From positions 1 through 46,143 of the forward strand of contig JAMCUS010000026.1 of the NCBI GenBank assembly GCA_023379385.1: a DNA stretch of 46,143 nucleotides. Reading direction: 5' to 3'. Origin of the DNA: Thermoplasmatota archaeon. Its GTDB lineage: Archaea > Thermoplasmatota > Thermoplasmata > Lutacidiplasmatales > JAMCUS01. A program made the position numbers and the translations under genes. The notes under the pieces are model-generated. The model had not been told where the DNA came from. It did not search any database and was given only the letters and a program-made list of their open reading frames with translations. This document shows positions 3,775 through 17,100 of the stretch, in pieces (the stretch's first letter is position 1; each line of letters opens with the position of its first letter).

Positions 3775-4215
3775 GTGTTTATAACATCAAATTACAAAAA
3801 GGAGTATCTGAATCAGATCATGGAGATTGTAGCCGACAGTTTGGGTGAGTTTTACGGGCCAGATTTATATGAAAATCTATCCAGGAACTGGAGAGATGGG
3901 TTTATTGTTTCTACTTATAAAAATATCGTCGTTGGGTTTATACTAGGCGTAATTCCAGCGTCTACAGAAAGTAGAATACTGATGTTTGCTGTCAAAAAAG
4001 AATTCAGAGGTAATGGTATTGGCACAATGTTAATGAATTCCTTTATAGAAAGAAGTGCAAATATAGGTGTTAAAAAAATATCACTTGAGGTCAGAGTATC
4101 AAATAAAATAGCAATCTCTCTTTATATTCATTTTGGATTCACATTTTCTCCTCAGATTATTCCCAAATATTACAGCAACGGCGAAGACGGATATCAGATG
4201 ATAAAATATCTGTGA
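3775..4215 (+). CDS. GNAT family N-acetyltransferase (RimI-like)
   Basis: About 146 residues from GTG 3775; an in-frame TTG at 3766 would add three. The acetyl-CoA pyrophosphate loop appears as FRGNGIG (R-x-x-G-x-G) after the beta-4 strand LMFAVKKE, and motif B as SLYIHFGF, as in RimI and archaeal Ard1/Nat. RimI-type enzymes acetylate protein N-termini; the substrate here is unknown. A TATA-like TTATAAAAC at about 3746-3754 lies some 26 bp before GTG 3775, so a leaderless mRNA starting there is the likeliest arrangement. It stands alone, convergent with the Lon-like gene. Confidence 0.82.
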   Translation: MFITSNYKKEYLNQIMEIVADSLGEFYGPDLYENLSRNWRDGFIVSTYKNIVVGFILGVIPASTESRILMFAVKKEFRGNGIGTMLMNSFIERSANIGVKKISLEVRVSNKIAISLYIHFGFTFSPQIIPKYYSNGEDGYQMIKYL

Positions 4216-4230
4216 TTCTGCGGCGCTCAA

Positions 4231-5739
4231 TCAATCATATCCGTGGGGTTCTTCAGTAACATTCCAGTTATAATAAGGAGTTTTGGTAATCTTGGATACA
4301 GGGGGTTTATCACCCCTTTCAATAGATCTTTTAATTGCCTCCTCTATAGGAATTACCTTCTTGATAGCTGTATTTACATCTGAGGCCTCAATAAGTGGCT
4401 TGTGATTTATCTTTGCCATATCTCCTGCTACTCTTATTACCCCTCCCAGTTCTCTCAATCTCAGCGTTAATCTATTTGGTTTTTCGTCGTAATATTTGGC
4501 TCTTCTTCTAGCTTCATCAATTAGGGCATATATTGCCTCTCTAGATGCATGTGGAATCTTTCCGTCATTGGCAATTTCCTGTGCAATGAACTGCGCTAGC
4601 TTTGATACATTTCTTTCATTATCCTCCATTGTAGTTGAGAGAAGAACTTCGTATCCGTTACCGAGTATTCTTGATCGTAATGGAGGTAATATGTACTGCA
4701 GATCTTCTATATTGGCAGAACCAACAAAAATAAAATCACATGGTACAGCATCTACCCTTACGCTGGCGCCTGAGCTCTGAGGATTCCTACCTGATATGGG
4801 AAACTTTTTTTCCTGCATAGCTGTCAAAATATATCGTTGTAGAATGCCTAGTTGGGGTATCTCGTCTATGAAAAGAACACCTTCATGAGAGTCGTGAATC
4901 ACACCGGCCACTACCCGTTCAAATGGTAATTGACCAAGAGTGGGATGTCCACCATATGGATCATGTCTAACATCTCCCAGAAGTTCTGTTTCACTTGCTC
5001 CTGTGGCAATAACAAACGGTGATCTGTTTATTGGAACAAGTACTTTACTGGGCCTTTTTTTAGCATGTTCTCTTCTCTTTTCAAGAGCCCTTTGATTCAG
5101 TATCTTTATCTTATCCCCCGCTTTTTCATAGGCAACGATCTCTTCCGAACCGTTTACGATCCTAGTTGCTTTTATAGATTCATTTCCAACGGCACGATTC
5201 ATAGTAACTTCAAGTAATCCACCTAGCCCGCCCAGTATGTCTTTAAATGGCCCTTCTGGAATCTTACCTGCTCCACCCTTTATTGTACCGCATGAGGGAC
5301 ATTCAACCTCTGTATAACTGGAATACATGCCACATTTACTACATCTATATCCGAGCTTTTCAGCAATATCGGCAGGTGCATTCTCTGGATCTATAAGGTC
5401 CCCATCCATAGCAAGCTTCGATTCATGTTCAAGGAAAACCTGCTCTTTTGTTAAAACCTCTATAAAGGGTCTTTCATGTGATTCAGGATTATCCACAACT
5501 CTTATTTCGTGTTCCGGTGCCTGTATATGAAATGATATTGCCTGAGCAGTCATGGATTTTCCAATTCCAGGTGGTCCAAAAAGGAGGAGATGTCTTCTCT
5601 GATAGGCAGCAATTCTGGCTGTTTCTACAGCTTCATCCTGTCCTATTATTCTATCCAGCGGATCCTTCGGAATAGCAATATCCTCGCTTGTTTCAATTTC
5701 ATCTATTGTAAATCCTTTTTTTGCATTAAGCGTTTTCAT
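4231..5739 (-). CDS. Lon-like AAA+ ATPase without a protease domain, zinc-ribbon insert
   Basis: 502 residues. The N-terminus IIGQDEAVETARIAAYQ and Walker A GPPGIGKS (residues 55-62) match the AAA+ part of archaeal LonB/RuvB-like proteins. A four-cysteine zinc ribbon (C133, C136, C147, C150) is inserted between Walker A and Walker B. Walker B is LFIDEI (about residue 290), followed by a sensor-1 SANIEDL and the PPLRSRI arginine-finger region. The protein then ends in the helical lid at about 500: there is no Ser-Lys protease domain and no membrane segment, both normal in archaeal LonB. Its start overlaps the dnaG stop by four bases, so it is co-expressed with the primase-like protein. Possible role as an unfoldase or remodeller; substrate unknown. 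Confidence 0.8.
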   Translation of the reverse strand: MKTLNAKKGFTIDEIETSEDIAIPKDPLDRIIGQDEAVETARIAAYQRRHLLLFGPPGIGKSMTAQAISFHIQAPEHEIRVVDNPESHERPFIEVLTKEQVFLEHESKLAMDGDLIDPENAPADIAEKLGYRCSKCGMYSSYTEVECPSCGTIKGGAGKIPEGPFKDILGGLGGLLEVTMNRAVGNESIKATRIVNGSEEIVAYEKAGDKIKILNQRALEKRREHAKKRPSKVLVPINRSPFVIATGASETELLGDVRHDPYGGHPTLGQLPFERVVAGVIHDSHEGVLFIDEIPQLGILQRYILTAMQEKKFPISGRNPQSSGASVRVDAVPCDFIFVGSANIEDLQYILPPLRSRILGNGYEVLLSTTMEDNERNVSKLAQFIAQEIANDGKIPHASREAIYALIDEARRRAKYYDEKPNRLTLRLRELGGVIRVAGDMAKINHKPLIEASDVNTAIKKVIPIEEAIKRSIERGDKPPVSKITKTPYYNWNVTEEPHGYD

Positions 5740-7154
5740 AATCCCAGATCTTTCATATATATTAATTTCATTGTTTCAGGTATCCTTGTTATACTGGAAT
5801 TAGTTCTGCCTACAATGGTTTTTATTCCTTTTGATTCTGATATGTCCAGTAAGTTCTGAGTTATAATCCCATCAAAGATTACTGTGATAATTGCTGCATT
5901 CTCATTAGTTATGGTACTCATAAGGTCTTTAACATCTATCTCCTTAATCACATTATCTAATGAATCAAGAAACCTTGCCTTATGTTTATCTTTTATGTCA
6001 ATCATAAACTTCCTATATTTATCGAACTGTGATGACAAGGCAGGTTTTATATTATCATGGGAAGATACCTTTACTGTGACTGGAGGTAAAGTCTGTGCTT
6101 TTGATAGATTATTAATCGTTTTTTGGGATGGCATATTGCTGTGTGTTGATTGGGACGCAAAACCTTCATGTTCTACGGTAGTCGTGCCTGAAGAACCATG
6201 TTCGTCACTATCGCTTATTGCTTCGTGACGGCTGTTGCTATTTCCATGATGATTGTTTATGTTATTATCGTAATTCTCTTTGTTATCACTACGATTATTG
6301 GCACTGGATGACTCTTCACCGGGATGATATAATTCCAGATATTGCTCCAGAGATATCTTATTTCTTAAACATTTCATAATCTGTTTTTGAGAAAGTTCTT
6401 CCACTTCCTGTCCCATGGGTGCTCTGGCTACATAATCTATCTCTGCAACCTGTAATAATTCTCTAAGAATTAGTTCTCCACCTCTGTCACCATCCACAAA
6501 CACGGTTACAGTTTTTGATTTTGAAAGGTTCTTTATGGTATCCGGAATATTTGTTCCCTCAACAGCGATTGTGTTTTTTATTCCAGATTTAAGCAGGTTA
6601 ATGATATCCGACCTTCCTTCTACAACTATTATAGCATCACTTCCATCTACATTTGGTCCTGCCGGTAATTTCTCTTTGCCATAGCTTTTTATTTCATCTA
6701 CCTGTATGGAACCTCTTACAGCCTCCATGATATCTGAACTTATATTCTTACTATCTTCTATGAGCTTATTGAGCAGTATTTTGGCTTTTTCTATAACCTT
6801 TGCCCTTTTGGATAACCTTACATCCTCTACGTTAATGATCTCTATTGTAGACCTGCATGGTCCTATTCTATCTATCGTTTCCAGAGATGACGCAAGTATA
6901 GCTGTCTCTACCTGATCAAGGCTAGATGGTATAGTTGCCGTACCCTCTGATTTACCTTTTTTTGAGTTTATCTCTACCTCTATCCTTCCTATTCTTCCAC
7001 TTTTTTGCAGGTCTCTGAGATCTAACTCATCACCAAGAAGTCCTTCAGTCTGCCCGAAAATAGCTCCTACAACATCTGGCTTATCTATCACACCATCTGC
7101 TGCAATCTTTGCATGTATCAAATATTTTGTAGTTGTTGAATCCAATTGATTCAT
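5736..7154 (-). CDS. dnaG: Archaeal DnaG-like primase (Toprim, exosome-associated)
   Basis: 472 residues. The N-terminal block KYLIHAKIAADGVIDKPDVV is typical of archaeal DnaG. The Toprim domain spans about 172-250 with the catalytic Glu in VVEGRSD (E179) and the DxD as FVDGDRGG (D221, D223). A polar Asn/Ser/His-rich linker follows (about 280-350), then a conserved C-terminal domain. Archaeal DnaG is known as a subunit of the RNA exosome and has been reported to have primase activity; which role dominates here is unknown. AAGGTG lies just before ATG. The gene overlaps the downstream Lon-like ATPase. Confidence 0.92.
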   Translation of the reverse strand: MNQLDSTTTKYLIHAKIAADGVIDKPDVVGAIFGQTEGLLGDELDLRDLQKSGRIGRIEVEINSKKGKSEGTATIPSSLDQVETAILASSLETIDRIGPCRSTIEIINVEDVRLSKRAKVIEKAKILLNKLIEDSKNISSDIMEAVRGSIQVDEIKSYGKEKLPAGPNVDGSDAIIVVEGRSDIINLLKSGIKNTIAVEGTNIPDTIKNLSKSKTVTVFVDGDRGGELILRELLQVAEIDYVARAPMGQEVEELSQKQIMKCLRNKISLEQYLELYHPGEESSSANNRSDNKENYDNNINNHHGNSNSRHEAISDSDEHGSSGTTTVEHEGFASQSTHSNMPSQKTINNLSKAQTLPPVTVKVSSHDNIKPALSSQFDKYRKFMIDIKDKHKARFLDSLDNVIKEIDVKDLMSTITNENAAIITVIFDGIITQNLLDISESKGIKTIVGRTNSSITRIPETMKLIYMKDLGL

Positions 7155-8087
7155 ATTTTCACCTTTTGTAACCTCTATGCACGAAATAAAATATAGATTG
7201 CTATCCTTTATGCATCTACCTTGCTCCTCTGTACAATAAAATCCTATATTTGATAAAGGAATATAATTTACTTAGAGTGGTAACATGATGATAACTATCA
7301 TACATTTAATATCGCACCTTACAATTACTAGAATAGCTTAACTAATATAAGTGTATTTTGTTACGTTACATGCTAATGTTTATTATACGTGGTTAAAATT
7401 TTTATTCGTATCCTATTACAAATGTTGATTTAACCTGAGTTTGGACATGGTAAAATAAATTCCTAGTAGATTGAACGTGAGCGTTTATAGTATTACCTTT
7501 TTGATAATCATTTTCACTATGCATTACTCCATAATGAATTATTTATGGTGGTATTACTATTACTTATCCATGACTTTTATTTGTGATTTGAAAAAACTAA
7601 GTGATACTGTTCATTACTACCCCGGAAAAAGTGAACGTGTCAATGAAAAGCCAAATGTTGTCATGAATATATGTTTAGGTACTGATGATAAAATCATACA
7701 GGAGAACATGGGAGTGGAAGAAAAGGAGATTGTTAAAATACTTAAGATATACGCTTTAGTTCCGAATTAATTTTAATTAATACTACAAGTTATTACGTAT
7801 GCCAGTAAGAAGTATTTTTTGGTTAATGTCCGAACTCGGGTTTAACTTGCCTGCAATAACATTTAAGGTATTTCCGGTGGTTTTCTTACCCATGTGCCTC
7901 TAAAGGTACAAAATAATTCCTAGAATTTTGAAAAATCACGATTATTGTTAATCGAGTTTACCCAATTATTGAGAACATTTTATAATTCATCATAACTGGG
8001 CAAATCTTCAAATAGAATTTTGTCTAATTCTATACAGTAGTAATTCTCTCTGCTTTCTGATTCATGACTAAATTTACTCTTTGAAAA
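7155..8087. other. AT-rich accessory stretch, mostly without genes
   Basis: After the dnaG leader there is no recognisable gene. A possible small ORF is listed at 7570-7770. A short hairpin-like string GTGCCTCTAAAGGTAC at about 7893 recalls insertion-sequence end hairpins but is too weak to assign. The rest appears to be decayed sequence. Confidence 0.4.
7570..7770 (+). CDS. Hypothetical small protein, doubtful
   Basis: A 66-codon ORF from ATG 7570 (a TTG further up at 7471 would add a Tyr/Ile-rich stretch that looks non-coding). The second half, ICLGTDDKIIQENMGVEEKEIVKIL, looks protein-like, and the ORF is uninterrupted, but there is no recognisable domain, no clear ribosome-binding site and no neighbour to give context. 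It may be a fragment of a longer lost gene or chance. Confidence 0.22.
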   Translation: MTFICDLKKLSDTVHYYPGKSERVNEKPNVVMNICLGTDDKIIQENMGVEEKEIVKILKIYALVPN

Positions 8088-8420
8088 CTACATTTTATAA
8101 TTATAATATTCAAATTTTTTATTTATCAATTTGTAACTTAATTTTATATTTTTATTTTTAATGAGGTAGTAGTAAAGATCATATATATCTCTTGTCCTTT
8201 GTCCGTTAAATATTGCTTTAACCTTCTCAGAGCCAGCCTCATCTAAATTCGTACCCAAAAGATGTTTAATAGGTAGGAAATATTCAGGACGATCTAATTT
8301 TAGAGTTACATTTTTTTCGACAACAGATTCTTGTTTGCTTATTTCAATATAAACTACGTGTCTATCTTTAGCACTTATTTTTAATGATAGCGTTATATTG
8401 TTATCAATTACTACTTTCAA
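8088..8420 (-). pseudogene. Truncated AbiEii/AbiGii-like nucleotidyltransferase toxin
   Basis: 110 residues from TTG 8420, with a stop codon a few codons upstream in frame. The segment EISKQESV, then PEYFLPIKHLLGTNLDEAGSEKVKAIFNGQRTRDIYDLYYYL, resembles the C-terminal half of type IV toxins of the AbiEii family, which end with an R-x-R-D-x-x-D-L block. The N-terminal nucleotidyltransferase half with the GSxxxxD-type motif is missing, and no AbiEi antitoxin is adjacent. So this is most likely a broken toxin. Debris on the plus strand just upstream (8430-8585) may belong to the same former locus. Family call moderate; loss of activity likely. Confidence 0.6.
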
Positions 8421-8793
8421 ATCATTATTTTACAGCCTGTAGAAGAAAAGTTAGATGTATTTGGAATTCAATATCCTAATAAAAGTGCATTTACAGAAGG
8501 TAGAATGGCAAAATTAATCCACTTTGCGGGCAAGCATTCCTAAACAGGAAATTGAAAGGCATTTGAGAGTCATAGATAAATAGGAATTATGGACTTGAAT
8601 CTACGTTGTTATTATGATCAAACTAGTACTTAACTGCATAAGTTACTAATCATATTCCTAAGTTAAAGGATCTCAACATTGGAATGCAATATAGGGTTAG
8701 GTAAAGTATTACGAAAAGAACTGCGCAGGTTATGGGTAGGAAGAGCTAAAACAAATACGAAATATTGATTAACTATGTTGATATGTTTGCTAT
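8421..8793. other. Gap with short coding-like debris
   Basis: On the plus strand 8434-8585 reads EKLDVFGIQYPNKSAFTEG followed, after a stop or frameshift, by SIPKQEIERHLRVIDK. This looks like two frames of one broken gene of unknown kind. The remaining bases to 8793 hold the upstream region of the AAA+ gene; no clear promoter was found. Confidence 0.35.
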
Positions 8794-10326
8794 GTGAGTA
8801 ATATGTCTATTTTATCGTCATCAAAAGGAAAACATCAGGAAGATAAATTTAATGCACAGATGCTTGTGGATCAGGGATATGAAGCAAAAACCCCTGTGGA
8901 GGAGTTGATAAGTAGCGTAGGCATGAAATTATCCATTTTCAGGGAAAAGGGATTTGATAGAGCTGAAGCAATGGCCAATCTATTTCCGGATATTGTTATG
9001 GATTTAGATACTCTGGAAAGTGTTGTCACCTCCATATTATCGGGTACACATATTCTGGTATTTGGTCCTCCCGGATCTGGCAAAACATCTCTTGCAAAAT
9101 CAATCTGGCACCTATATCCAAAGGAGGTGTATGTTGTTGGCGATTGTCCTGTCCTAGACAATCCCATGAGTCTTGTAGATGAAAAATACTGGGAGATCTC
9201 ACCGCCATGTCCATTCTGCAAACATAATTATGCAAAGGAATACAGCGAATTTCATCCAGACTTAGTTGATCCTGAATCTGTACCTGTTAAAAAAATTCTT
9301 TTGCATGAGGGTATGGGGTTTGCAAGAATTCAGGGGAGTTCTGAAGTTTTTCCAGATCACCTCACTGGTAGTATCAATTTACATATGCTTGAAAGAATTG
9401 GGGACCCATTAAGTCCGCTGGTTATTGAGCCAGGAAAGCTTTTACAGGCCAATAGAGGTATACTGGTTATAGATGAAATAGGAAAATTACCGTATGGAAC
9501 ACAAAATGTATTACTACAGGCATTAGAAGAGGGTATTGTAACACCGTCTAAATCACGTGAAACATTTCCATCAATGTTTTTTGCAATAACAACCTCAAAC
9601 ATGGAAGATTTGGATAATATCAATGAACCTCTCAATGACAGGTTAACAAGTATATATATGAATTTTCCATCCTTACATGAAAGTAACATCAGAATTGTAG
9701 ATGTTAATATAAAAAAAAGAAGAATAAGAAGGGCTCCACTTATAATTAAAGAGATTTCATCACGTCTTATAGAAGAGTGGAGAAAGAACTATATGGATCA
9801 TCCAGATCTTGCAGAAGTTGGATCAAACAGAACAATTATAGATATAATAGATCGTTCAATATCATATAGTATTGTTTATAATGGTAGCTATTTACCATCT
9901 GTTAATGAACTAAAAAAAGGTGTTTTAGACTCGATGAGGGGTAGAGTTAGAGCCAGGTCTGGATTAAGTTATAAAGAGAATATTGATATTGTTACCTCTT
10001 ATTTGGATAAATATTTTGATAAGTTCGTAAATTATACCACTCTTCTTATATGGTGTACATACTACAGAAATGAATTAAAAAATGATAAAAGGAAAAGTGA
10101 AGAGCTATTTGCAGAAATAAGAAGGTTATTGGAAGATAAAAAATTACAGAATGAACTTAAAAATGGGAATACAGGAACATTTAAAAACTTCACATCCTTT
10201 GCAAATTATCTTGTTAAAATGGATGATGAAAAAGAGGTAGACCCAATTACTTATGGTTTATGGATCTCTGGTTTCATCATTAACATGCCTGACAAAAAAT
10301 GTAATGAGAGTGATAAAAAGGCATGA
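8794..10326 (+). CDS. MoxR/ChlI-like AAA+ ATPase with cysteine insert
   Basis: 510 residues from GTG 8794 (ATG at 8803 is possible). Walker A is FGPPGSGKTS (about residues 90-99), Walker B GILVIDEIGKL (about 222-232), then a sensor block ITTSNMEDL and a NDRLTSIYMNFP arginine-finger region, as in Mg-chelatase subunit I and MoxR ATPases. Between them sits a CPFC pair (about 139-142) and a DLVDPESVP segment. The C-terminal 200 residues are helical and unassigned. It overlaps the downstream VWA gene by four bases; AAA+/VWA pairs of this kind work as two-part chelatases or protein-remodelling machines in known families. No cobalamin or bacteriochlorophyll genes are nearby, so metal chelation is not implied. 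Confidence 0.85.
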   Translation: MSNMSILSSSKGKHQEDKFNAQMLVDQGYEAKTPVEELISSVGMKLSIFREKGFDRAEAMANLFPDIVMDLDTLESVVTSILSGTHILVFGPPGSGKTSLAKSIWHLYPKEVYVVGDCPVLDNPMSLVDEKYWEISPPCPFCKHNYAKEYSEFHPDLVDPESVPVKKILLHEGMGFARIQGSSEVFPDHLTGSINLHMLERIGDPLSPLVIEPGKLLQANRGILVIDEIGKLPYGTQNVLLQALEEGIVTPSKSRETFPSMFFAITTSNMEDLDNINEPLNDRLTSIYMNFPSLHESNIRIVDVNIKKRRIRRAPLIIKEISSRLIEEWRKNYMDHPDLAEVGSNRTIIDIIDRSISYSIVYNGSYLPSVNELKKGVLDSMRGRVRARSGLSYKENIDIVTSYLDKYFDKFVNYTTLLIWCTYYRNELKNDKRKSEELFAEIRRLLEDKKLQNELKNGNTGTFKNFTSFANYLVKMDDEKEVDPITYGLWISGFIINMPDKKCNESDKKA

Positions 10327-12140
10327 GTTCACCAGAACAATATCTTCCTGATTGTGATAATATTGAACTACCTGCAACTGCTCACATCCTTGATGAAAAG
10401 GGTATAGAGTACATCATTAAAAAAATAGGAAAAGAGGGTATCGGATCTTTATCCGACACTATAAAGGAACTTGAAAAAAATGATAGCTATATCAGAGAAA
10501 GCATAAAATCAATCAGAGATAGATTGAAAAAAGAGATTGAAAGCAGGGTATCCATACTGAACAGAAAATACGACGAAAATTTAGAAAAGATAAAAAGGGA
10601 ATACGGCGAAAATATAAAAATTATAAAAACAGAAAAGGAGAGTATAGATACACTACTGGAAAGTAATTTTGTTCTGGGCAACGTTAAATCCTTTTTTGAT
10701 AATGAAGAAGCTCTGCTTGGCCTGTTGATGGCTGAAAATAAAGGTATCAATAAAAATAAAAGTTATTTGACTAGATTTATTGAATTACTAAAAGCCATGA
10801 TATCGTATTTTAAAAAATTGTTTAAAGGCATATTTAAAAAATCACCAAAAAAAGAGGCTAAAAGGGAAAGTATTGCAATACTGGATACATTGGGGCTTTC
10901 TACCTCAAAAGTTATTCAAATTGCTGTTTCTGGTAGTCCCATAGGCAATCAAATTTTAACAGATATGGCTGAGAGTAAAAACATTTCAAAAGTGAGTTTG
11001 GAGGATAAACGTATAAAAAATCCAGAAGAATATAAAAAAGAGGTTGAAGATTATATTCATAATAGATTTGAAAACATCAATAAAACTGAATTCAACCTGA
11101 AAATCAAAAAAATATTGAAAAAAAGATCTGATAGACTAAGTAAAAAAGAGAAGGAATTGGGGCTGGAAACAGACAAAAAAAAGGATGAAGTAAAGTCCAT
11201 GCAGGAAATGGAGCAAAAAAAGGCTGAGGATAAAATGACCAAAGATATTGATAAAGGGGTTGTATCTGCATCAGCATATGAGCTCAAAACGCTAGGCTAT
11301 CTTAAAGGTACAAATGAGAAAATGGAGGTTACAGCGGCTTTTATAGATAGACTAGGTGAATTGATATTTGAAGAGGAAATAAAAAAAATTCCGGAAAGTT
11401 ACAGGTATTCATTGTATAGTCATGGAATACAAACAGGTATTTATGATAAAAGAAGACTTCGCGACAGGGATGAAATTGCAAAACTGGATATTGTAGATTC
11501 TTTGATAGAAAGTAAGATACACAAATATTCAACAATAGACGTGGATTTGGCATATATATATAACGAGATAGGTGAAATGAACCGGCATTCCATATTACTA
11601 TTTGACAAAAGCGGTAGCATGGATGAAAATGATAAGGTTTATGCCGCCAAAAGAGCGTTAACCTCTCTCTATGTAGCCATTAAAAAACATGATTCTCAGG
11701 CAACAGTAGACGTAATAGCATTTGATTCAAATGTTAAGATAATGGATTTCTATCAGATGTGGGAGGTTAAGGCTGGTGAGTTTACCAATACAGGTGAAGC
11801 AATACTCACAGCATATAAATTATTTAAAAAGGGAAATGTTAAGAGGGACCTGTACATGATAACTGATGGATTGCCTGAAGCATATACAACATCATCTGGT
11901 AGCGTGAAAGCCGGTGATTTCAAAATGAGCATGGAATATGCTGTACAGGCTACAAAATTGCTAAGCAGGTTAAAGGATCTTTCAGTTACCATTGTACTTT
12001 TAAAATCAGATGACAAAAGATACCTTCAGGCTGCAAAAAACATCGCATCTATATGCAACGGTAAAGTAATAGTTACCGAACCGTCAACATTGGCGACAAC
12101 ATTACTTCTGGATTTTGCAAAAAGAAATATGCATAAATGA
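10323..12140 (+). CDS. VWA-domain protein, partner of the AAA+ ATPase
   Basis: 605 residues. A C-terminal von Willebrand A domain (about 420-600) has an intact MIDAS: DKSGS (about 428-432), the Thr in FTNTGEAI and the Asp in MITDGLPE. The N-terminal part is highly charged and mostly helical, with coiled-coil-like stretches at about 35-120 and 225-320. At about 145-185 a cluster of alternating aromatic and Lys residues (SYFKKLFKGIFKK) could form an amphipathic membrane-binding helix. In known MoxR-VWA or ChlI-ChlD pairs the VWA protein binds substrate or target through its metal site and is remodelled by the ATPase. The overlap with the AAA+ gene supports a complex. Target unknown. Confidence 0.86.
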   Translation: MSSPEQYLPDCDNIELPATAHILDEKGIEYIIKKIGKEGIGSLSDTIKELEKNDSYIRESIKSIRDRLKKEIESRVSILNRKYDENLEKIKREYGENIKIIKTEKESIDTLLESNFVLGNVKSFFDNEEALLGLLMAENKGINKNKSYLTRFIELLKAMISYFKKLFKGIFKKSPKKEAKRESIAILDTLGLSTSKVIQIAVSGSPIGNQILTDMAESKNISKVSLEDKRIKNPEEYKKEVEDYIHNRFENINKTEFNLKIKKILKKRSDRLSKKEKELGLETDKKKDEVKSMQEMEQKKAEDKMTKDIDKGVVSASAYELKTLGYLKGTNEKMEVTAAFIDRLGELIFEEEIKKIPESYRYSLYSHGIQTGIYDKRRLRDRDEIAKLDIVDSLIESKIHKYSTIDVDLAYIYNEIGEMNRHSILLFDKSGSMDENDKVYAAKRALTSLYVAIKKHDSQATVDVIAFDSNVKIMDFYQMWEVKAGEFTNTGEAILTAYKLFKKGNVKRDLYMITDGLPEAYTTSSGSVKAGDFKMSMEYAVQATKLLSRLKDLSVTIVLLKSDDKRYLQAAKNIASICNGKVIVTEPSTLATTLLLDFAKRNMHK

Positions 12141-12176: not shown

Positions 12177-12809
12177 TTAATTAACGATCTCCATTATTTT
12201 ATCCTTTACTTCATGGAAGGTTTCAAAGGAATAAAATGGCAATTTACGTTCCTGCATCATTTCTGATAACTTTCTTCTTGCAAATGTTATGTCAGAACAT
12301 AAAGCGGCGTCTATATCAAGTGAACCATCTCCTATAAACACAATAGTTTTACCAGAAAATTTATTTTTTAATGTTTCAACAAAATTTGCTTTAGAAAAAG
12401 GTATTGATGGAAACCTTATGCTATAATTGTGTCCGTTATATGTAATAGATGGAGAATACGTTTCTACATTCTTCCATTTCATCTTTTCCAAAAATAATTT
12501 TATATAAAAATCAAGACCAGCACTTGCAATAAAAAAAGGTATATCATGTTCGTCACAAAAAATTTTGAATTTTTCAACACCGTCTCTTGCCGTCATATGT
12601 GATAACGCAAAACTGTTCAATTCCTTCAGTGTAGCATTGATAGACATGACAGAACCAGTCATTGCGTCTTCATAGCTCAATATTCCTGTAATCCTCATGT
12701 TTTCAAATTCTTTCCATACCGAACTTCCAAACTTTTCAAAAAGTATGAAATCTACCTGCTCCTCTACAATGGTACCATCAAAATCTGAAATTATAACGAT
12801 CTCTTTCAT
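12177..12809 (-). CDS. HAD-superfamily phosphatase (MtnX/SerB-like)
   Basis: 210 residues. Motif I is ISDFDGTIVEE with both catalytic aspartates; motif II probably the Ser in FFIASAG; motif III/IV the Lys of FSKANF and GDGSLDIDAA. A cap domain lies between. The family includes phosphoserine-type and methylthiopentenyl-phosphate phosphatases; the substrate is not evident. ATG 12827 is six codons further up, but the TATA box TTTATAAATA (12840-12831) lies 27 bp before ATG 12809, and the decayed paralogue at 14385 starts at the same point, so 12809 is the better start with a leaderless mRNA. Confidence 0.82.
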   Translation of the reverse strand: MKEIVIISDFDGTIVEEQVDFILFEKFGSSVWKEFENMRITGILSYEDAMTGSVMSINATLKELNSFALSHMTARDGVEKFKIFCDEHDIPFFIASAGLDFYIKLFLEKMKWKNVETYSPSITYNGHNYSIRFPSIPFSKANFVETLKNKFSGKTIVFIGDGSLDIDAALCSDITFARRKLSEMMQERKLPFYSFETFHEVKDKIMEIVN

Positions 12810-12830
12810 TCCTATTCCATATTTCATTCC

Positions 12831-13877: not shown

Positions 13878-14385
13878 TTAATCAACTAACTCTCTCAGTC
13901 TATTCTCTATATCGTAGAAATTTTCAAAGTAATAAAAGGGTAATTTACGTTCCTGCATAATTCTTGATAACTTTCCTTTCGCAAAAATCATATATGAGCA
14001 TAAAGCGGCATCTATATCCTGCGGGCAATCACTTCCTATAAACACAACGCTTTTTCCAGTGAATTTATTTTTTAGTTGTTCAATAAAATCTGCTTTGGAA
14101 AAGGGTTTAGACGGAAACTTCATATTCGTTACATAAATTCTTGAATTGCCTGAGACCTTCTCTAGCGGTCATGTGTGATAATGCGAACTCATTTAATTCC
14201 TTTGGAGTTGCCTTAATGTACTTAACACAGGCTGTCAGTGTATCTTTATAATCCAATACTCCTGCATACCTGATCTTATTAAACTCTTTGTGTATTAAAC
14301 ATTCAAATCCTTCAAAAAGCAAGGAGGCTACATCCTCTTCAGCAATGATTTTATCAAAATCTGAAATTACAATAAGCTCTTTCAT
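13878..14385 (-). pseudogene. Decayed paralogue of the HAD phosphatase
   Basis: Two fragments match the phosphatase at 12177-12809 end to end. The first (14385-14107) reads MKELIVISDFDKIIAEED and continues to the ALSHMTAREGL block, then shifts frame. The second (14123-13878) resumes at KFPSKPFSKADFIEQLKNKF and runs to the C-terminus. About 45 codons of the cap region are missing at the junction, which lies at 14107-14123 with a frameshift. Motif I has lost its GT (DFDKI) and the GDGSLDIDAA motif has become GSDCPQDIDAA. These are signs of a non-functional duplicate about 1.5 kb from its parent. Confidence 0.8.
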
Positions 14386-14533: not shown

Positions 14534-15415
14534 ATGAATAGTGTTGGAGAGACGGTATTAATAATTTTTATAGCTATAATATTCATAGTATTTCTATTAT
14601 ATGCTATAAGAATTGTGAGAGAGTATCAGAGAATTGTTGTTTTCAGATTTGGAAGAGCACTTGCCGAAAAAGGACCTGGTATTGTCTTTATATATCCTAT
14701 AGTTGACCAACCGGTAATGGTTGATCTAAGAGAACGATTTCTTACAATACCTCACCAGACATGCATTACCAGAGATAATGCACCTGTAGATATAGATTTT
14801 ATGATTTATTTTAAAGTGATAAATTCAGCAGACTCAGTTATAAAAATAAATAATTTTGAGGGCGCCGCCACCGGTATTGCAACAACCACGCTTAGAGCAG
14901 TAATAGGAGATATAAACCTTGATGAAGTATTATCTAAACGTGAAAATATAAATTCAATTTTAAGGGTAAAACTTGATGAAATAACCATCAGATGGGGCGT
15001 AAAGGTAACAAACGTAGAAATAAGAGAAATCCTTCCGCCAAAAAATGTATCTGATGCAATGATTCTTCAGATGGCTGCTGAGAGGACTAGAAGAGCTGTA
15101 GTTACAGAATCTGAAGGTAAGAAATCAGCAACTATAACCGTGGCAGAAGGTGACAAACAATCTAACATACTCAGAGCAGAAGGAGACAGGCAGGCGGCCA
15201 TACTCAGAGCAGAAGGGTATTCACTTGCACTTAGTACTGTATTCAATGTAGCCAAGACTATTGATAGTAAAACACTGTCCCTGCAATATCTGGAAATGTT
15301 AAAAGCACTTGGTTCATCAGAATCTACAAAATTTATATTCCCTATGGAATTTACGGAAATAATAAGGCCATTTACCGAAACGCTTAAAAAGGTTTACAAT
15401 GACAACGAAAAATAG
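14534..15415 (+). CDS. SPFH/stomatin-like membrane protein
   Basis: 293 residues. One N-terminal membrane helix (about 7-25) is followed by the SPFH domain, with EYQRIVVFRFGRALAEKGPG and the VDLRERFLTIPHQTCITRDN block, then an alanine- and glutamate-rich helix with repeated RAEGDRQAAILRAEGY, and a short C-terminal tail. Prokaryotic stomatins organise membrane microdomains and are known substrates or partners of NfeD proteases. The next gene overlaps it by 17 bases and encodes a short NfeD, and a convergent NfeD protease follows. In Pyrococcus the long NfeD cleaves the C-terminal hydrophobic tail of stomatin; here the tail IIRPFTETLKKV is short but similar in place. Confidence 0.9.
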   Translation: MNSVGETVLIIFIAIIFIVFLLYAIRIVREYQRIVVFRFGRALAEKGPGIVFIYPIVDQPVMVDLRERFLTIPHQTCITRDNAPVDIDFMIYFKVINSADSVIKINNFEGAATGIATTTLRAVIGDINLDEVLSKRENINSILRVKLDEITIRWGVKVTNVEIREILPPKNVSDAMILQMAAERTRRAVVTESEGKKSATITVAEGDKQSNILRAEGDRQAAILRAEGYSLALSTVFNVAKTIDSKTLSLQYLEMLKALGSSESTKFIFPMEFTEIIRPFTETLKKVYNDNEK

Positions 15416-15830
15416 GAAAGAGTTAACCATTATAGATAGATATGGTTACAGAACCTTCATAATTCTCCTGTTAATACTAATATTTGCAATTTACCTCATA
15501 TACCTCTATTTCTCCACAGGTGAGGTGCATTCCTCCTATCTTTTCTTATCTGTACTGTTTCTCATAATTGCGGTTATTCTTTTCGTAGGATTCAGATTCA
15601 CAATTATAAAAAAGATAGATAAAATATATTTTAATACGAATACCATGATAGGCGAATCCGGTATTGTTATCACGCCAGCATCTGCAGGACTAAAGGGTAC
15701 AGTACGTATTCAGCATGAAGAATGGTCCTTTACATCAAATGAGGATATGCAGGTAAATGATAAGGTAGAGGTTATATCTGTTATGGATGATAAGGTGACA
15801 ATGGTAGTTAGAAAAATTAAATCTTCTTAA
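15399..15830 (+). CDS. Short NfeD-like protein (two TM helices plus OB fold)
   Basis: 143 residues. Two membrane helices (about 17-37 and 46-66) precede a soluble C-terminal domain of the NfeD OB-fold type, with GESGIVITPASAGLKGTVRI and the end VNDKVEVISVMDDKVTMVVRK. The protease half is absent. It overlaps the stomatin gene by 17 bases and thus forms a two-gene operon. Short NfeD proteins are partners of stomatin-class proteins in many prokaryotes. It also overlaps the 3' end of the long NfeD gene on the other strand by 14 bases. Confidence 0.84.
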   Translation: MTTKNRKELTIIDRYGYRTFIILLLILIFAIYLIYLYFSTGEVHSSYLFLSVLFLIIAVILFVGFRFTIIKKIDKIYFNTNTMIGESGIVITPASAGLKGTVRIQHEEWSFTSNEDMQVNDKVEVISVMDDKVTMVVRKIKSS

Positions 15831-17100
15831 CCCTGACCTTTCCATCCACATATTCTACAACCTTTACATGTTCACCCTTCTTAATCGGGCTATCTGATAT
15901 GGCGCTCCAGTCCTCCGCCATAACGTTCACTACACCCTCTTTTAACACCTCTATATCCGTCATAGCTGTTCCAGTCTTTCCTTTTACTATATCAGGACCA
16001 ATTAATTTTGGTTTTTTCATGGCAACTTCCCGTAATTTTATTAGGTATAAAGCACCGATAGGTATTACAGTAGCCTCCAGAACTATAATGATATAGCTTC
16101 CAATATTCATAAATGGAAAATATATCCTGCTGGAATACGTTATTCCATATACCGTTATAATACTGCCCGTTATTACCATCCCCACCCCGGCTGCCATGGC
16201 AGCTCCATGACCCAGTTTAACCTCTACAAATATCAATGCCACTCCGATTATTATCAAAAGAAGTCCCACAACACTACCATTAATTAACTGAGAACCCCAG
16301 AAACCTATTGCCAGTGCAATAACTCCTACCACTGTAAGGTATATTGAACCGTGATAGATATCAAGCATTATTGCAATAGAACCAATCAGTATGAAAAATC
16401 CTGATATTATTGAATTTGATATAAAGGATTCAAATTGCTGATATACATTTTCTGTATACTGTATTAAGGCATAATTTGAATATCCTGATTTTGCTAGAAC
16501 ATCGTTCAGACTGTTGCTTATTCCATTTATAACTGATAGATTATATGCCTCCACATCAGTATAGGCTGTATTGTTATACACCATGGTGGCAACGGCTGAC
16601 ACATTTCTGTGATGTTCTAAAGCAAGTGATTTCATATAAGAGGCAGCGGCATTTATCACATGTTGATTCTCACCGGAAGAACCACCTATTATATATGGCT
16701 GTGATGGCCCTATAAAACTACCGTTACCCATATATATGTAGTTGCTAGCCATAGCAATAAAGGAACCTGCTGATGCACCCATATCACCAGGTGGTATATA
16801 GGTTATGACATTAATAGTGGATTCTGCATTCTGAATTGAATTCACAATACTGAAGGCACTGGAGAGGTATCCTCCCGGTGTATTCATAATTATGATGACA
16901 GGATCATTATTCTGAACAGCATATGATAACGTCTGGTGAAAATAATTTACAGCGCCTGGATCCACTCCATAATCAAAATTTATAATAACAACAGAATGTG
17001 AACTGCTGGCAGACACAGCAGATGCATTTATTACTGAAATAAACGACGCTATGGATATATATAATAATAGAATATAAATAATTTTATTGAATCTAAACAT
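15817..17100 (-). CDS. NfeD-type membrane serine protease (ClpP-like)
   Basis: 427 residues. A signal peptide or anchor (about 6-29) leads into a ClpP-like domain facing outward: the nucleophile is the Ser in GASAGSF (about residue 112), and the general base is the Lys in YMKSLALEHHRN (about 157), as in the Ser-Lys dyad of Pyrococcus PH1510. The intervening NTPGG oxyanion loop is present. Four or more membrane helices follow (about 240-350), and then the OB-fold NfeD domain with GPDIVKGKTGTA and GEHVKVVEYVDGKVRV. It is the probable processing enzyme for the stomatin encoded convergently next to it. Start ATG at 17100; no strong ribosome-binding site. Confidence 0.9.
   Translation of the reverse strand: MFRFNKIIYILLLYISIASFISVINASAVSASSSHSVVIINFDYGVDPGAVNYFHQTLSYAVQNNDPVIIIMNTPGGYLSSAFSIVNSIQNAESTINVITYIPPGDMGASAGSFIAMASNYIYMGNGSFIGPSQPYIIGGSSGENQHVINAAASYMKSLALEHHRNVSAVATMVYNNTAYTDVEAYNLSVINGISNSLNDVLAKSGYSNYALIQYTENVYQQFESFISNSIISGFFILIGSIAIMLDIYHGSIYLTVVGVIALAIGFWGSQLINGSVVGLLLIIIGVALIFVEVKLGHGAAMAAGVGMVITGSIITVYGITYSSRIYFPFMNIGSYIIIVLEATVIPIGALYLIKLREVAMKKPKLIGPDIVKGKTGTAMTDIEVLKEGVVNVMAEDWSAISDSPIKKGEHVKVVEYVDGKVRVKKI

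Follow-up and report, generated by a model that had tools for sequence, protein, structure and literature searches.

Introduction

PrkA (YeaG; PF08298), a protein of bacteria and haloarchaea, has been described variously as a kinase, as a protease and simply as an AAA+ ATPase; in the available text of a 2026 study, neither kinase nor protease activity could be detected for the Bacillus anthracis protein (PMC13001217). As far as the accessible part of a 2011 comparison goes, two PrkA-like proteins cluster with DUF444 and SpoVR in all haloarchaea, an arrangement not found there in other archaea (PMC3102087). Here we describe a pair of overlapping genes from a Thermoplasmatota archaeon, encoding a PrkA-related AAA+ ATPase and a VWA protein, at positions 8794 to 12140 of contig JAMCUS010000026.1 (assembly GCA_023379385.1). 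The window referred to below is the whole stretch of DNA that was analysed, 46,143 nucleotides of this contig.

AAA+ proteins also have VWA partners in NorQ-NorD and CbbQ-CbbO, which are MoxR AAA+/VWA couples, and in RavA-ViaA of E. coli. In NorQ-NorD, according to the portions available of two reports, the VWA domain occupies the opening of the ring and reaches into the pore with a finger, and the metal ion-dependent adhesion site (MIDAS) is required for an active target but dispensable for ring binding (PMC9976466, PMC13036017). The former account has NorQ acting in metal insertion (PMC9976466), and the title of a structure entry assigns CbbQ to Rubisco activation. RavA and ViaA are described, in the text available, as binding lipids at the inner membrane (PMC9489729), so that a membrane-held AAA+/VWA pair has precedent. 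Literature on PrkA with SpoVR, YeaH/YeaG/YhbH, DUF444 or haloarchaea, searched by titles and the starts of abstracts and with many subscription papers lying outside the search, gave no description of the present pair.

The ATPase gene occupies 8794..10326 on the forward strand, as do all features of the pair given below, and encodes 510 residues (model predicted local distance difference test score, pLDDT, 85.6). Its open reading frame (ORF) begins with GTG, an in-frame ATG three codons downstream being an equally possible start. The VWA gene follows at 10323..12140 (605 residues; model pLDDT 78.7), with the VWA domain at the C-terminus. The genes overlap by four bases, ATGA at 10323..10326, an arrangement that would be consistent with translational coupling.

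Kinship of the ATPase with PrkA

By homology, the ATPase is related to PrkA. The AAA_PrkA profile (PF08298) scored 31.0 bits on the window ATPase against a gathering cut-off of 25, and it matched 19 of 19 orthologues with the lowest single E-value of any Pfam family (3e-13). Within the window's genome AAA_PrkA matched at this ATPase gene only, and among 292 sampled genomes of the phylum it exceeded its cut-off in 37, the same 37 that carry the ATPase family. When the archaeal ATPase was compared by hhalign with eight bacterial PrkA proteins, the probability was 98.7 (E 4.7e-16) over 238 columns spanning the cysteine insert described below; haloarchaeal PrkA proteins were left out of all PrkA comparisons. 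An earlier note, written from the DNA alone, had labelled the ATPase MoxR/ChlI-like, and it does exceed the cut-off of AAA_3 (PF07726; 35.0 bits against 27), which we take to stand for the MoxR type, and that of Mg_chelatase. This label is too coarse, the ATPase being PrkA-related. Sigma54_activat, MCM, AAA_2, AAA_5 and AAA were likewise over their Pfam cut-offs.

The pair is thus PrkA-related and not established as an orthologue of PrkA/YeaH/SpoVR, because the ATPase has no PrkA C-terminal domain, PrkA forms a separate clade, the DUF444 cut-off is missed and SpoVR, which usually accompanies PrkA, is absent from the genomes sampled. Orthology to a PrkA/YeaH-type system had been named in the earlier note as the outcome that would count against its proposal; we found a homologous ATPase, with the C-terminal (kinase-like) domain giving no Pfam match in 19 of 19 orthologues (E <= 0.001), DUF444 below cut-off and no SpoVR. 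The SpoVR profile (PF04293) matched 0 of the 106 genomes of the window's order and 0 of the 292 phylum genomes, and a control search with it matched in 4 of 14 genomes. The archaeal protein has 510 residues whereas most PrkA proteins have about 600-650, and its Walker B motif ends in the canonical DE, where PrkA references have VE or QE.

Among the top structural matches listed for the ATPase model, NorQ and CbbQ stood at Z 15.7-15.0 (root-mean-square deviation, rmsd, 2.7-3.5; 222-240 residues aligned). A first fold search had put Lon at the top by E-value, a result that was not ranked on, with TM-scores of about 0.35 and an rmsd of about 9. A PDB sequence search with the ATPase found 9xip, a serine protein kinase, at E 0.025, and the absence of that entry from the listed structural matches carries no weight.

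A cysteine insert in common with part of PrkA

The earlier note had also picked out a CPFC pair between the ATPase motifs, and this pair was recovered at residues 139-142, between a Walker A motif GPPGSGKT (residues 91-98; 9064..9087) and a Walker B motif LVIDE (residues 224-228; 9463..9477). It is half of a larger insert, CP-x4-P-[FLMY]...CP-x-C, that occurs also in some bacterial PrkA proteins and runs here as CPVLDNPMSL...CPFC over residues 118-142 (9145..9219). Across the 36 aligned ATPase family sequences there is no variation in the cysteines C118, C139 and C142 or in the core motifs; a sensor-type TSN and a conserved arginine, R283, complete the set. The archaeal CPVLDNPMSL...CPFCKH aligns to CPMHEDPLHL...CPSC of Paenibacillus PrkA, with counterparts CPINEDPLHL...CPFCKH in Priestia PrkA and CPMHEEPLHL...CPWC in Thermomicrobium PrkA, and in the same place E. 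coli YeaG carries SPVNDHPF...SPWA.

The strict form of the motif matches 30 of the 36 family members, and the remaining six still keep the three cysteines. Of the 224 ORFs that the ATPase profile matched, 192 have it, and outside that profile it was present in one of 9234, the Thermomicrobium PrkA; the loci overlap and some ORFs were counted more than once, hence these counts are not independent. Going by their invariance, C118, C139 and C142 are probable zinc ligands, and they would probably lend stiffness to the PrkA-type insert.

One archaeal relative (locus L219 in genome G130; ATPase gene 7743-9497) has the insert without cysteines, DPLQTDPFSL...PPSPWAK, in parallel to E. coli YeaG. YeaG and this relative seem to have lost the insert cysteines independently, with the element itself retained. 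Short PrkA-like proteins on Bacillota plasmids (L209:3710-5116, 468 residues; L167, about 3914-5311, 466 residues) keep the cysteine insert and form a pair of their own in the tree.

Conservation of the gene pair

Strong ATPase relatives (E <= 1e-50) were found in 90 of the 106 genomes of the window's order, for which the available part of PMC9287336 supplies the name Lutacidiplasmatales, so the ATPase observation is more than chance. By family they occurred in 1/1 genomes of f1, 0/2 of f2 and 89/103 of f3. In the phylum sample the 37 ATPase-bearing genomes belong to f1, f3 and 13 families that carry the labels of other classes, with none in the listed same-class families f4-f7. The Thermoplasmatales, named in the earlier note, are not quite the right group; relatives occur in the order to which Candidatus Lutacidiplasma belongs and in those 13 families.

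The VWA family was present in 36 of the 292 phylum genomes, and the two genes nearly always occurred together: both were in 35 genomes, the ATPase only in two, the VWA gene only in one and neither in 254. In both ATPase-only genomes (G141 and G158) the contigs end inside a VWA-matching frame, and the VWA-only genome (G150) is 75% complete; all three cases are explicable by contig ends or by incompleteness of the genomes. Shared ancestry inflates these counts, and no probability is hence attached to them. Scans of genome contigs yielded 80 named loci with an alignment (A1) as query and no relative with the single protein. The VWA gene follows the ATPase gene in 73 of these (66 complete ORFs and seven cut by contig ends); of the seven without it, three run out of sequence in under 700 bases, and in four there is space enough yet no VWA gene. 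It likewise follows in 20 of 21 regions, window included, and it does so in 19 of the 20 regions drawn from other families, some of them cut by contig ends. In three genomes (G005, locus L172; G006, locus L173; and G114, contigs C199 and C253) the two genes stand on different contigs and both are kept; that neither is lost in the absence of linkage is the strongest sign of a common task.

An all-against-all comparison was made for a third conserved partner; its listings include many antisense ORFs that were set aside by eye. Only the pair recurs widely in the 20 regions of other families. In 20 regions of the order ribosomal protein eS1, to which Pfam assigned one member, is the recurrent neighbour, upstream and on the opposite strand. 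Scanning viral contigs found no relative.

The VWA partner

The MIDAS of the VWA protein is intact, with DKSGS at residues 428-432 (11604..11618; D428-x-S430-x-S432) and the aspartate D515 in TDGLPE (11865..11867), and D428, S430, S432 and D515 are invariant in an alignment of 33 VWA-family sequences. The overlapping AAA+/VWA pair of the earlier note, with intact Walker A, Walker B and MIDAS, was thereby confirmed at its coordinates and found conserved across 36 ATPase and 33 VWA sequences. The note had further ascribed to the VWA protein a charged N-terminus and a Lys/aromatic segment. The model agrees with the former, predicting long charged helices at residues 55-113 (10485..10661) and 254-323 (11082..11291). 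The latter is present as a cationic amphipathic helix at residues 146-174 (10758..10844), a candidate membrane-binding element. In 31 of 33 VWA sequences the segment was more amphipathic than shuffled versions of itself (p<0.05), and all 33 have a net charge of +3 to +9 in the segment, with 2 to 12 aromatic residues. The sequence varies widely across relatives while the cationic amphipathic property is kept. In one relative (L123) the composition of the segment suggests a helix hydrophobic enough to span the membrane or to insert deeply.

The VWA model matched best the bacterial VWA protein 4fx5 (Z 21.8, rmsd 1.6, 164 residues aligned) and also matched NorD (Z 19.2, rmsd 4.3). The fold does not single out NorD, since 4fx5 ranks above it. 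In the model, the layout is similar to that of NorD, with a helical N-terminal part, a C-terminal VWA domain and, beside the MIDAS, a short predicted hairpin (residues 519-531; 11877..11915) that may be a candidate counterpart of the NorD finger. The archaeal pair shares with NorQ-NorD and CbbQ-CbbO the AAA+ fold, a C-terminal VWA domain with MIDAS and the organization as a two-gene machine, but no close sequence relationship to them was found. It shares with RavA-ViaA the AAA+ plus VWA arrangement, and RavA and ViaA bind membrane lipids; hhalign nonetheless gave 32.0 to RavA and 5.9 to ViaA, and the lipid-binding parts have no known homology.

Like YeaH/YhbH (DUF444, PF04285), the VWA gene lies just downstream of a PrkA-type ATPase gene, and there are weak profile matches; unlike YeaH/YhbH, the protein falls below the DUF444 cut-off, has 605 residues and carries the charged helices and the cationic amphipathic helix. 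The DUF444 profile exceeded its cut-off in 0 of the 106 order genomes and gave sub-threshold matches in seven, of which four are VWA-family members by the family profile and three lie, by position, immediately downstream of the ATPase gene. These matches hint at a distant kinship of the VWA family to YeaH, and no more. A PDB sequence search with the VWA profile gave two weak matches only, both outside the VWA domain, and the VWA protein had no plasmid match and no match in PHROGs or PADLOC. The matches of the ATPase in PHROGs and PADLOC were weak and mostly P-loop.

Neighbouring genes

The minus strand at 4231-7154 of the window encodes two proteins, one of them a LonB-like AAA+ ATPase of 502 residues with a four-cysteine insert, YRCSKCGMY...VECPSCG. 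Its Pfam matches do not include a Lon protease domain, and its gene overlaps that of a Toprim protein, presumably one resembling archaeal DnaG. This LonB-like ATPase (4231-5739, minus) was considered as a close paralogue of the PrkA-related one and rejected, hhalign giving 79.6 over 68 columns and 62.0 over 70 columns, and the insert motif being absent. Downstream of the pair, a gene for an SPFH/Band 7 protein and then one for an NfeD protein occupy 14534-17100, with a separate NfeD1b on the opposite strand, a neighbourhood of the stomatin-NfeD type. Two short ORFs in different frames at 13878-14385 (minus strand) resemble the intact HAD phosphatase at 12177-12827; by eye they look like a decayed second copy of it, and a Pfam scan of them gave no match.

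Discussion

On balance we lean towards the reading that the PrkA-related ATPase, as an AAA+ ring, and its one dedicated VWA adaptor form a membrane-associated two-part remodelling machine in the style of NorQ-NorD or RavA-ViaA, a distant and SpoVR-free relative of PrkA-YeaH-SpoVR. The pair looks like a stripped-down relative of a known, poorly understood remodelling system. This reading draws on the homology of the ATPase, the intact motifs, the near-perfect co-occurrence and the conserved property of the helix. The earlier note had proposed an uncharacterised two-part remodelling machine, and conservation, co-occurrence and fold speak for the machine; the word uncharacterised needs qualification, the ATPase being PrkA-related with a PrkA-type insert.

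In the mechanism that we propose, the ATPase would assemble as a hexamer and the VWA domain would dock on the pore of the hexamer or inside it. With its metal, the MIDAS would grip an acidic surface of the target, and ATP hydrolysis would strain the target through the VWA adaptor. The cationic amphipathic helix in the N-terminal part of the adaptor would hold the whole machine at the membrane, in which case the target is likely membrane-bound or membrane-near, while the three cysteines, probably with zinc bound, would stiffen the insert.

Several results weigh against this reading. Five of nine PrkA-type references lack the strict insert motif, which is hence not universal in PrkA. In the tree, the nine PrkA rows form a 100/100 branch of their own without the 12 archaeal rows; its deep order is unresolved, and because the branches are long it gives no claim of sisterhood (YehL dropped out, having been missed by the pattern used to cut the core). 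In the VWA protein, model confidence is low around the amphipathic helix (local pLDDT about 40-70), and in many relatives charge alone lifts other stretches equally high on a lipid-binding discriminant. Lon, at Z 14.8, comes within one Z unit of NorQ for the ATPase model; the cut-off of the LonB protease family TIGR00764 was missed (33.1 against 516.6 bits). Mg_chelatase (42.1 bits), the top Pfam match, and Sigma54_activat (40.7) outscore AAA_PrkA on the window ATPase, and hhalign gave 97.2 to a single haloarchaeal chelatase-like (ChlID-like) protein and 94.3 to BchI.

The chelatase scores, together with NorQ and CbbQ as top structural matches, which act in metal insertion (by the text available of PMC9976466) and, by entry title, in Rubisco activation, would also fit a couple of a VWA protein and a generic MoxR/chelatase-type ATPase, with metal insertion into a cofactor or an enzyme as its task; its likeness to PrkA would then go no further than the general AAA+ core plus a convergent cysteine motif. 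We consider this possible but unlikely. The ATPase missed the Mg/Co chelatase equivalog cut-offs by far (TIGR02030, 20.7/466.95; TIGR02031, 32.4/499.55; TIGR02442, 29.8/779.45 bits), and the strict insert motif, present in four of the nine PrkA-type references, occurs in none of seven other AAA+ controls. Moreover, in agreement with the earlier note, a Pfam scan of 30 other window proteins (E limits of 1e-5 or looser, small ORFs only partly scanned) turned up no gene of a metal-cofactor pathway. Less probable still is a true, very diverged PrkA-YeaH system that has lost SpoVR and whose job is still the one done in bacteria and haloarchaea. The PrkA homology of the ATPase, the sub-threshold DUF444 matches landing on the VWA partner and the gene order of ATPase then VWA, which matches bacterial records, would suit it; however, it is at odds with the missing C-terminal domain, the DUF444 and SpoVR results and the separate PrkA clade, and hhalign of the VWA family gave 71.8 to YeaH, no better than the 79.9 given to YehP. 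A MoxR-vWA ternary module serving conflict or defence, a type of system that such couples power according to the available text of PMC7159879, is highly improbable here, as bpMoxR scored 13.1 against 27 bits, the VWA protein lacked a PADLOC match, and strong relatives across 90/106 genomes of the order, adjoining the eS1 gene in many regions, are unlike a mobile defence island.

Returning to the membrane-associated remodelling machine, we offer one extension of it tentatively, as rather doubtful. The pair may represent a distinct archaeal sister of PrkA in which an ancestral two-part core survives, with canonical Walker B, zinc-bound insert and membrane-anchored VWA adaptor; PrkA-YeaH-SpoVR would then have derived from such a core by gain of the C-terminal domain and SpoVR, and the job common to both would be remodelling of a membrane-associated target. 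That this relative of PrkA has neither the PrkA C-terminal domain nor SpoVR, and yet retains its VWA partner, suggests a working core made up of the ATPase and the VWA protein, and the archaeal pair offers a smaller system for testing PrkA-type function.

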